Assembly (NCBI RefSeq): GCF_016863435.1
Contig: NZ_BOOW01000041.1
Coordinates: 62,001-126,000 of the forward strand
DNA: 64,000 nucleotides
Direction: 5' to 3'
From: Sinosporangium siamense
Lineage (GTDB): Bacteria > Actinomycetota > Actinomycetes > Streptosporangiales > Streptosporangiaceae
Shown: piece after piece, positions 49,001-64,000 of the stretch
How the letters are laid out: every line of letters begins with the position of its first letter
Position numbering within the stretch: position 1 is the first letter of the stretch
Notes under the pieces: model-generated
The model's input: only the letters and a program-made list of their open reading frames with translations
Told to the model about the DNA's origin: nothing
Database searches by the model: none
Translations under genes and position numbers: made by a program

Positions 49001-52639
<3,639 letters not shown>

Positions 52640-52645
52640 CTGACA

Positions 52646-52733
52646 CCTCCCGCTCGTGTGGGAGGCGCCCTTTAGGTAAGCAGTCCCGGCCGAGCGTGGC
52701 GGACCTCGGGGCCCGTTGCAGCGCCTCTCGACC
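52646..52733 (-). promoter_or_regulatory. S-adenosylhomocysteine (SAH) riboswitch in the metH leader
   Basis: Reading leftwards, the leader has GGTCGAG (52733-52727), AGGCGC (52726-52721), TGCAAC, hairpin GGGCC-CCGA-GGTCC, CCACG, CTCGGCC, a linker, and GCGCCT (52668-52663). AGGCGC/GCGCCT form P1, and GGTCGAG/CTCGGCC form the pseudoknot helix P4 (one G-U pair). The UGCAA and CCA-G-CUCG segments match the conserved SAH aptamer core. Immediately after, CCTCCC (52665-52660) is complementary to the Shine-Dalgarno GGGAGG (52651-52646). SAH binding should hold CCTCC in P1 and free the ribosome site, an ON switch, as described for ahcY leaders. Confidence 0.85.
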
Positions 52734-52948
52734 TTGATACGAGGGTAGCAAGCACGGGGCGCTCGTGGGAAACGCTTACGCCCCTGGGCACACCACATCA
52801 AGCGTATTCCAGCACTTCACCGCCCCTTTATCGACATGCACCCCAAATCCCCCGGCCTTGACCACTGTTGTGGAACTATCGCCCGCCACACTGTGGCGGA
52901 CCGACCTCCGAGCCCGCCACACCCCCACCAGACGCCACTCACCACAAG

Positions 52949-61488: not shown

Positions 61489-61938
61489 TCAGTGGTGGAC
61501 GGCGCGCAGGTCGCGTGTGCGCACGACTCGCAGGTCCGACCGGCGATCCTCGCCCACGAGCATGTCGAAGAGGTCGCCGCGCGCGTCGCTGAGGAACCCG
61601 AGCGGGGCTCTGACGGCGAAGAGCAGTCCCCTGCCCCAGTCGCGTACGAGCGCGCCACGCGCCGGTGTCCCGCCCTCCTCCTCGTTGACGAGTCGCAGTC
61701 CGGTGAGACGCTTGCCGACACTCGCCCCGCCGAGTAGGACGTGGTTGGCGTAGGAGACCAGGAAAATCGAGAGCACGACGCCGATGAGGATGCGGCCCAG
61801 GAGTCCGTTGAGCGTTCCAATGACGAACGCGCCGGTCACGCCGATCACACCGCCGCCCACCAGCGCCACGAGTTTGTCGGCCACCACGGCCAGGACATAG
61901 CGGAAGCCCGTTTCAGCGGGGGGAAGCTCACTGTTCAT
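61489..61938 (-). CDS. RDD-family membrane protein
   Basis: A 149-aa protein. The N-terminal helix segment AVVADKLVALVGGGVIGVTG is the RDD-type start, followed by a second helix (LGRILIGVVLSIFLVSYANHV), then GASVGKRLTGLRLVNEEEGG, typical of RDD proteins. The C-terminal ~50 residues are cytoplasmic and charged. RDD proteins include cation transporters and anonymous membrane proteins; no specific role is visible here. The ATG is at 61938. Confidence 0.85.
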   Translation of the reverse strand: MNSELPPAETGFRYVLAVVADKLVALVGGGVIGVTGAFVIGTLNGLLGRILIGVVLSIFLVSYANHVLLGGASVGKRLTGLRLVNEEEGGTPARGALVRDWGRGLLFAVRAPLGFLSDARGDLFDMLVGEDRRSDLRVVRTRDLRAVHH

Positions 61939-62190
61939 GGGTGAATCATGGCGTCTTCTCGGCCATGCACGGAAACCAACGGGCCTTTCACGGGATTACC
62001 CCCCGAAGGGGCGGCCAAGCGAAATGTCCCGCGCTCCTCCTCAGAAGACAGCTCGTCGCCGGACAAAGGTGCGACTGCCCCACATGCCGAGGTTCCAGCG
62101 GCGGGCAGGAGGACGGCCGGCGTGCCGCAGGCGCAGAGTGCTTGCCCTTGCCCGCGAGATCGGCGAGTGCGGCGAGTGCGGCAATCGCAC

Positions 62191-62233
62191 GCGCAGGGTG
62201 CTTGCGAGTGCGGCAATCGCAAGCACCCTGCGC
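62191..62233. terminator. Perfect 17-bp hairpin downstream of orphan atpB
   Basis: GCGCAGGGTGCTTGCGA (62191-62207) and TCGCAAGCACCCTGCGC (62217-62233) pair fully with a 9-nt loop. GAGTGCGGCAATCGCA is repeated next to it (from about 62174 and inside the loop). It lies about 180 bp after the atpB stop. The rest of 61939-62413 has no gene I can support. Confidence 0.65.
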
Positions 62234-62413
62234 AAGCGCGGCGGTGGGTTTCGACACCCTGACGGCGAACCGGCTGCGGCCGGTCCCTGCCCTGGGTGAA
62301 GGCCGGCATGGTGACGCTGCCGGAGGGCTATGTCCACTGCGGCTAGGTTTGCACCGTTCCGAAGGTCGCCGACGGCTGAGCAATGCCGGACGGCGGACCG
62401 CCCGATGGGTGGT

Positions 62414-63187
62414 CTAGTGCTCGGGATGCATGGCGTTGCCGATGTACATCGCGGTGAGCATCGTGAACAGATATGCCTGCAACAGCATGATGAAGATTTC
62501 CAGCGTGGTCATCGCGATGGCCATGGCCACGCTGAGCAGCCCCAGCGGCACACCCACGAAGGTGGGCCGCTCGAAGAGGAACCAGAAGCCGACCGAGCTG
62601 AAGAAGGCCAGCAGCAGGTGTCCGGCGAACATGTTGGCGAACAGCCGTACGGCATGCGTGAAGGGCGAGGTCACGAAGTTGTAGATGAGCTCCAGCGGCG
62701 CGTAGAGCACCAGGGCGAGGGGCTTGGGCAGCCCGGGAGGGAACATCATGCCCTTGAAGTAGCCGACCAAGCCCTGGTGTTTGACGCCCAGATAGATCTT
62801 GATCACGTAGGCGACGAGGGCGAAGAACGCGGGGAAGGCGATATGGGCCGTGACCGGGAACTGCACGCCGGGCACGACGCCGAAGAGATTCCACACCACG
62901 ATGAGGAAGAAGAGCGAGAGCAGCAGCGGCATCCACCGGTCGGTGTCCTTGCCGAGGAACGGCCGGGCCACCTGGTCGCGCACGAAGAGATAGCCGATCT
63001 CCCCGACGTTCTGAATCCCCCTAGGCACGAGCTTCGGGCGGGCGAAGGCCGCCCAGGCCAGCACGCACACCAGGATCGTGCCTAACAGGGCGAAGAGCAC
63101 GGATTTGGTCAGCCAGAACGGTGCTCCCGGCCAGAGTGTGGGGAACTCGAAAAGTCCCAGGCCAGGCGCCTGGTAGCGGTCGTTCAC
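62414..63187 (-). CDS. atpB: ATP synthase F0 subunit a, orphan copy
   Basis: A 257-aa membrane protein, the proton-channel subunit of F-type ATP synthase. The essential arginine is Arg181 (THAVRLFANMFAGH; E. coli Arg210) and the late glutamine is Gln237 (LLQAYLFTML; E. coli Gln252), so the channel residues are intact. The usual RLFGNM reads RLFANM. The GTG at 63187 follows GAGAGG. In a standard atp operon, atpE and atpF follow on the same strand; here a hairpin and an RDD gene follow, and a divergent TetR gene sits upstream. It is therefore either a duplicate subunit or a displaced gene. Confidence 0.92.
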   Translation of the reverse strand: MNDRYQAPGLGLFEFPTLWPGAPFWLTKSVLFALLGTILVCVLAWAAFARPKLVPRGIQNVGEIGYLFVRDQVARPFLGKDTDRWMPLLLSLFFLIVVWNLFGVVPGVQFPVTAHIAFPAFFALVAYVIKIYLGVKHQGLVGYFKGMMFPPGLPKPLALVLYAPLELIYNFVTSPFTHAVRLFANMFAGHLLLAFFSSVGFWFLFERPTFVGVPLGLLSVAMAIAMTTLEIFIMLLQAYLFTMLTAMYIGNAMHPEH

Positions 63188-63216
63188 ATCGCACACCTCT
63201 CTCGACGGCAAAAACT

Positions 63217-63272
63217 GCGTATGGTGTACCTGGTTTCGATCCGAACCCTAAATTACCCGGTACCGTGTACGC
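63217..63272. promoter_or_regulatory. GTAnnGTGTAC repeats between atpB and TetR
   Basis: GTATGGTGTAC (63219-63229) and GTACCGTGTAC (63260-63270) are direct repeats 41 bp apart. GCGTATGGTGTACC and GGTACCGTGTACGC are also near-inverted copies. They are candidate repressor sites in the 120-bp divergent promoter. Confidence 0.55.
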
Positions 63273-63307
63273 AATACAGGCGAGGTCAACGAGCGAGGAC
63301 GAGAACG

Positions 63308-64000
63308 ATGGCGACCCACGAGAACCTGTGGCTGCGGTCCGAGCGGCAGGGGACCCGCGGGCCGAAACCCAGCTTCAGCCGCGAGGCACTCACCGAGGCC
63401 GCGATCCGGATCGCCGACGCGGAGGGCATCGAGGCGATCTCTATGCGGCGCCTCGCCCTGGAGCTGGGCGCGGGCACGATGAGCCTCTACCGGTATGTGT
63501 CCGGCAAGGACGACGTGATCGAGTTGATGATCGACACCGCCGTCGATGGCTACATCCCGGAAGGCACCGTCATGTCCGGCGACTGGGTGACGGACATGCG
63601 CGACCTGGCGCAGCGGTCACGGCAGACGATGCTCCGCCACCCCTGGCTGGCCCCGCTCGCGGCGAACCGGCAGCAGACGGGCCCCAACCGGTTCAGGCTG
63701 ATGGAGGAGACCCTGGCCATCTTCGACGGGCTCGGCCTGAGTCCCGACCGGATGCTGACGGTCGTAGGCAGCGTGATCGCCTACGTCAACGGGTTCGTGC
63801 AGAGCGAGCTCGCCTACGCCGAGGCGATGCGCCGCACCGGCCTCGACATGCGGCAGTGGATGGCCCTCCACACGCCCTTCATCGAGTCGATGCTGGCCAC
63901 CGGCCGATTCCCGAGGTTCGCCCGCATGACCGCCGAGGCCGGCCGCGAACTCGTGGGCAGCGACGCACGTTTCCTCTACGGCCTCGACCGCCTCCTGGAC
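63308..64000 (+). CDS. TetR-family regulator (TetR_C_1 type), 3' end cut
   Basis: 231 codons are visible; the gene continues past the window. The HTH is at residues ~30-75 (ISMRRLALELGAGTMSLYRYVSGKDDVIELM). The C-terminal domain matches the TetR_C_1 group (RHPWLAPLAANRQQTGPNRFR, VIAYVNGFVQSELAYAEAM). The ATG at 63308 follows GCGAGGACGAG. Repressors of this group usually control a divergent neighbour, which here is atpB. Confidence 0.92.
   Translation, partial: MATHENLWLRSERQGTRGPKPSFSREALTEAAIRIADAEGIEAISMRRLALELGAGTMSLYRYVSGKDDVIELMIDTAVDGYIPEGTVMSGDWVTDMRDLAQRSRQTMLRHPWLAPLAANRQQTGPNRFRLMEETLAIFDGLGLSPDRMLTVVGSVIAYVNGFVQSELAYAEAMRRTGLDMRQWMALHTPFIESMLATGRFPRFARMTAEAGRELVGSDARFLYGLDRLLD

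Follow-up and report, generated by a model that had tools for sequence, protein, structure and literature searches.

Two divergently oriented genes lie at the end of the window (the whole 64 kb stretch of DNA analysed here, bases 62001-126000 of the 155,384-base contig C41 in a genome of 8.86 Mb and 84 contigs):

62414..63187, minus strand: atpB2, a stand-alone gene for F0 subunit a (257 aa, GTG start at 63187; PF00119; 67% identity to the AtpB of the atp operon)
63308..64000, plus strand: gene for a SimR-like TetR of 243 aa (TetR_N and TetR_C_1 domains), ending at window-equivalent 64039, 39 bp past the window

The AtpB2 protein covers the full length of the Pfam ATP-synt_A domain (185 bits, cut-off 33.9) and also scores above the threshold of TIGR01131 (124.5 bits, cut-off 102.6). 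A ribosome site, GAGAGAGG, precedes the GTG start, and an in-frame TTG codon occurs upstream at 63211. A sequence-only reading of this DNA had described an intact subunit a gene with its channel residues, standing alone and divergent from a TetR_C_1-type repressor. All of this agrees with the domain scores, with the retention of R181 and Q237 and with the start of the repressor gene at 63308.

The first gene downstream of atpB2 encodes an RDD protein (61489-61938). A terpene synthase, a P450, an ABC transporter, an alpha/beta hydrolase and a two-component pair are encoded in the wider flanks. Further atp genes are absent there, and nothing recognisable as a biosynthetic cluster for an ATP synthase inhibitor was seen in the neighbouring genes examined. 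Between atpB2 and the RDD protein gene, positions 62172-62238 contain a 21-bp direct repeat and a G+C-rich, near-perfect 26-bp inverted repeat with a 1-nt loop, which could form a terminator-like or cruciform element. Elsewhere in the window, the minus strand encodes the B12-dependent methionine synthase MetH (49001-52801); the 1278-aa open frame opposite to it has no Pfam match and is a typical artefact of high-GC coding sequence.

A second subunit a in addition to a complete atp operon

The complete operon atpI-atpB-atpE-atpF-atpH-atpA-atpG-atpD-atpC is located on contig C9, which rules out that atpB2 is a relocated single copy. The operon-encoded protein (AtpB1) and AtpB2 are 67% identical, and all channel residues are kept in AtpB2. 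The genome contains two AtpB genes but only one gene each for subunits c and b; AtpB2 can therefore work only with the ordinary partners, and a second complete F-ATPase is excluded by the absence of a second c or b gene from the genome. The search for an alternate (N-type) F-ATPase operon was likewise negative (TIGR03306, 49 bits versus 302). One other genome of the same genus was searched and has a single atpB.

Conservation of the atpB2/tetR pair

Many of the 341 genomes of the family carry two atpB genes; these counts cover the family; a mycobacterial query run across the class lacked the sensitivity needed to count second copies outside it. The loci found in such genomes include the same divergent TetR, beginning ENLWMRPERPARGPRPSFSR. 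When GTDB genomes were scanned with the TetR alignment, 80 loci were obtained, and every TetR with at least 56% identity faced an atpB gene (23/23) versus none of the more distant ones (0/57). The 23 atpB-facing loci belong to Microtetraspora, Planotetraspora, Microbispora, four Nonomuraea species and one unclassified actinomycete MAG.

In a maximum-likelihood tree the TetR-paired AtpB proteins form one clade (100/100) that spans several genera, and the divergent TetR is present in 24 of its 25 members. The TetR has been lost in G224, where atpB now lies behind a same-strand gene for a LuxR-type response regulator. A chance neighbourhood is ruled out, as the pair persists among differing outer neighbours. 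Two findings had been named in advance as telling against the sequence-only reading, the lack of any other atpB in the genome and a TetR pairing without conservation; both turned out otherwise.

Two of the loci need separate comment. In Microbispora sp. H11081 (L086) the atpB gene has a frame change, possibly a sequencing error. The pair of MAG RYN_229 (L091/L222) had the appearance of a transfer, but the L091 atpB is 66% identical to the operon copy of its own genome versus 52% to atpB2 of the window, which makes independent recruitment or gene conversion the likelier origin. The GTAC sites described below are missing from this pair and a palindrome, TTAACTCGATA...TATCGAGTTAA, stands in their place; the recognition helix of the L091 TetR is altered in step with the operator change, from GTMSLYRY to RPMAIYSY.

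Operators, promoter and type of the repressor

The intergenic region contains the following predicted elements:

63219..63229, no strand: operator O1, GTATGGTGTAC, downstream of the atpB2 promoter; palindrome kept in 19/19 aligned orthologues
63245..63250, minus strand: -10 element TAGGGT of the atpB2 promoter
63260..63270, no strand: operator O2, GTACCGTGTAC, between -35 and -10 of the atpB2 promoter; kept in 19/19 aligned orthologues
63269..63274, minus strand: -35 element TTGCGT of the atpB2 promoter, overlapping O2

The repeated GTAnnGTGTAC sites pointed out earlier thus correspond to two sites that are conserved in orthologues. Their general form is GTAC-n3-GTAC, with two palindromes per intergenic region in all 19 aligned orthologues, although a few operators, O1 of the window among them, are off by one base. 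On the plus strand of the 64 kb window, GTAYNNYGTAC matches nowhere but at O1 and O2, and none of 5000 dinucleotide shuffles of the intergenic stretch contained two matches, which rules out chance operators. The promoter pattern TTGCGT-N17/18-TAnnnT occurs on the atpB2 strand in 18 of the 19 orthologous intergenic regions; O2 falls within its spacer and O1 follows the -10 element on the downstream side, a layout that would be expected for repression. The same GTAC-n3-GTAC motif precedes nearly all of the more distant TetRs; the spacing differs, being 41 bp between O1 and O2, and about 41 bp in most atpB-linked loci, versus 21 bp in most Streptomyces. The motif agrees as well with what has been published on the Pip operators, in which two 4-bp palindromes are separated by a 3-bp spacer (PMC5743821).

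The best solved relative of the TetR is SimR (2y2z, E 2.6e-49), followed by 5ojx and ActR, and the alignment with SimR begins at residue 6 of the TetR and so includes the N-terminal arm. SimR occupies two operators in the region that separates the divergent simR and simX genes, and the antibiotic simocyclinone releases it (PMC5812520). Among the 57 more distant relatives that lack an adjoining atpB, 48 face a DrrA/DrrB-type ABC exporter (ABC domains checked in two examples). No drug exporter faces the TetR of the window, where atpB2 occupies that place instead. These data support the assignment of the repressor to the antibiotic-sensing SimR/ActR type, as judged from its sequence. Within the scan, loci L093-L149 make up a large group of SimR-like TetRs divergent from DrrAB-type exporters. 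The group has pairs of GTAC-n3-GTAC operators, in Streptomyces often spaced at exactly 21 bp, and gives the impression of a coherent family of regulators and exporters.

Other stand-alone atpB lineages

The largest group of orphan atpB genes is a second type found in about 30 genomes assigned to Nonomuraea (examples are loci L180-L194), where it has a fixed place between HAD-hydrolase genes and genes for a glycosyl hydrolase of family 3 and PTS proteins. In these orphans the otherwise invariant E166 is replaced by Ile, Val or Met. No obvious regulator of the drug-sensing type is present beside them at the loci examined, and induction is therefore not general. Related orphans occur in genus g5, one of them divergent from a MarR gene (G328). 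Four orphans of a probable Actinomadura type adjoin a cytochrome P450 gene (L200, L205, L206, L207), and at least three of these four loci have, immediately upstream and in the same orientation, a gene for a BetI-type TetR. Together with the LuxR-type response regulator mentioned above, the BetI-type TetR and MarR cases indicate that regulators were acquired more than once. A few stand-alone atpB genes are broken, by an in-frame TAG in L202 (G259) and by an internal deletion in L221 (G181).

Tests of origin were run with the segment around residues 157-172 held apart. One origin for all orphan atpB genes is ruled out (p-AU 1e-4), which implies two or more separate origins of stand-alone subunit a genes. 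For the TetR-paired and Nonomuraea/g5 clades, a single shared origin is compatible with the data (p-AU 0.13). Among 54 Nonomuraea genomes, 30 have an intact gene of the Nonomuraea type and 5 the TetR-paired type, and the two are never both intact (hypergeometric p 0.013, ignoring ancestry); one TetR-paired carrier retains a truncated remnant of the Nonomuraea type. This mutual exclusion suggests that both types do the same job.

Channel residues, selection and the a/c interface

R181, N185, H190, E230 and Q237 are identical across the canonical and all orphan groups. The signature of subunit a in alkaliphilic Bacillus, a Lys and a Gly near the channel, was looked for and not seen. A change of ion or of channel chemistry is ruled against, as no residue change supports it. 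The dN/dS ratios between orthologues (orphans 0.13-0.36 versus canonical 0.10-0.23) indicate purifying selection in the orphan copies, slightly stronger in the canonical ones.

The differences that distinguish the TetR-paired clade are concentrated in one segment:

62669..62719, minus strand: AtpB2 codons 157-173, a cluster of substitutions fixed in the TetR-paired clade

Ten differences between TetR-paired and canonical proteins are fixed, six of them in residues 157-172 (hypergeometric p 5e-6) with one more at 173, and a one-residue insertion adjoins the cluster. In M. smegmatis, aL170, aP172, aI173 and aV176 touch bedaquiline at the lagging a/c site (PMC9516385). By sequence alignment, the equivalents of these four residues fall within AtpB2 157-173; the mycobacterial sequences used for this were checked for agreement with the published residue numbers. 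The position equivalent to aL170 is Leu in 43 of 45 canonical copies and Tyr or Phe in 25/25 TetR-paired, 14/14 Nonomuraea orphan and 5/6 Actinomadura orphan copies. As the Actinomadura orphans are of separate origin, this aromatic change is a parallel one. The equivalent of aI173 has become Leu in the TetR-paired and Nonomuraea orphan groups. The altered c-ring/a interface that the sequence-only reading had proposed finds its counterpart in these substitutions, which are predicted to lie at that interface; neutral drift shared in a tolerant helix could account for part of the clustering. The assignment of bedaquiline contacts to AtpB2 is an analogy, since the drug is synthetic and the mapping was made by sequence alignment only. 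Oligomycin-resistance sites of yeast ATP6, presumably at R-15 and R-11, would map to AtpB2 residues 165 and 169 and are given as a lead only.

Interpretation

The second copy, the conserved pair, the operators placed over the promoter, purifying selection and the clustering of substitutions at the interface are established at the level of sequence. On these grounds atpB2 and tetR are probably an inducible spare-part module, in which a replacement subunit a is induced by a xenobiotic; we give this reading a probability of about 0.55. The SimR-type TetR would bind the two GTAC-n3-GTAC operators and hold atpB2 off until released by a small and hydrophobic ligand, for which an antibiotic directed at Fo or at the membrane is the likeliest candidate. 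AtpB2 would then be made and take the place of AtpB1 in newly assembled ATP synthase, together with the ordinary c-ring and b subunit. It shares the proton-path residues of AtpB1, but its a/c interface is putatively remodelled at the point of entry into the horizontal helix; an enzyme containing it may go on rotating under conditions that block the normal a/c interface.

The sequence-only reading had offered two roles, inducible target replacement and adaptation to pH or uncouplers. The former has gained from the second copy, the conserved TetR pairing, the antibiotic-sensing type of the repressor and the changes at the a/c interface; the pH alternative is less supported because the channel residues are unchanged. 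In a broader form of the latter, the TetR would respond to a metabolite of the cell itself, and AtpB2 would adjust ATP synthase to uncoupling, a low proton motive force, extreme pH or a stage of development. N. gerenzanensis, which grows at pH 4-12 and in which duplicated ATP synthase genes have been noted in passing, has an rpoB duplicate linked to alkaline growth (PMC5431353), and the lack of a linked regulator of the drug-sensing type in most Nonomuraea orphans also fits such a role. However, the five proton-path residues are the same in canonical and orphan copies, subunit c is single with no sign of altered ion or channel chemistry, and the relatives of the repressor sense antibiotics and control exporters. 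The unchanged channel and the drug-sensing ancestry of the repressor favour the drug reading, and we regard tuning to pH or energy state as rather unlikely.

The same ancestry could mean that the TetR is a general drug sensor and that AtpB2, acting jointly with further genes under the same repressor, such as exporters encoded at other loci, confers tolerance to membrane-damaging compounds and not to one Fo inhibitor. This would suit a SimR/DrrAB-type family in which the operator motif is common to many relatives, but the atpB2-linked TetRs form a group of their own, have no linked partner other than atpB and differ in operator spacing (about 41 bp, versus 21 bp in most Streptomyces), which makes the proposal improbable. 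That atpB2 is a relict duplicate without present function, as the broken orphans (G259, G181 and L086) might hint, or a relocated single copy, is very improbable in view of the complete atp operon with its own atpB, the low dN/dS values and the retention of pair, operators and promoter over several genera.

Replacement of subunit a in response to a xenobiotic thus remains the preferred reading of the locus. Its extension to soil actinomycetes at large is more tentative, with the odds somewhat against it: antibiotic-inducible target replacement of ATP synthase might be family-wide, with subunit a remodelled at the bedaquiline-type lagging site in at least two separate evolutions and with repressors derived from those of drug exporters. 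If so, natural inhibitors acting at this site are implied. Were the module to work as proposed, the bacterium would exchange one subunit in the stator of its rotary motor as the need arises, the repressor could serve directly as a sensor in the search for natural inhibitors of ATP synthase, and the conserved substitutions would show how a drug site now used against tuberculosis is altered in nature.

Comparison with known systems

Resistant duplicates of drug targets are known for RNA polymerase, gyrase and others. AtpB2 shares with such duplicates its presence as a second copy beside the normal one and a concentration of substitutions at a known inhibitor site. The literature searched offered nothing direct on orphan atpB, on self-resistance by subunit a or on Pip/SimR operator sequences, and no description was found of a resistant duplicate of the Fo motor with its own ligand-responsive switch.

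In its regulatory half the locus resembles SimR/SimX of Streptomyces antibioticus and ActR, which also combine a TetR_C_1-type TetR with an N-terminal arm, a divergent target and two intergenic operators; those systems regulate an efflux pump, whereas here the target is an ATP synthase subunit and no biosynthetic cluster is recognised alongside. The pristinamycin-responsive Pip/ptr system of Streptomyces has two 4-bp palindromes with a 3-bp spacer in operators that overlap the promoter (PMC5743821), but it controls a multidrug resistance gene and has three operators versus two here; the likeness rests on the description of the operators. As to the target, regulated alternative isoforms of one Fo subunit are represented by the ATP synthase c-subunit paralogues of Podospora anserina, which differ in concerning subunit c of a fungus under ordinary metabolic regulation and not a TetR switch (PMC4956034). 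The rpoB(R) gene of Nonomuraea gerenzanensis and rpoB2 of Nocardia are likewise extra copies of an essential subunit with substitutions near the drug site (PMC5431353); in the present case the duplicated subunit belongs to the Fo motor and has a putative repressor of its own, and resistance is a predicted outcome.
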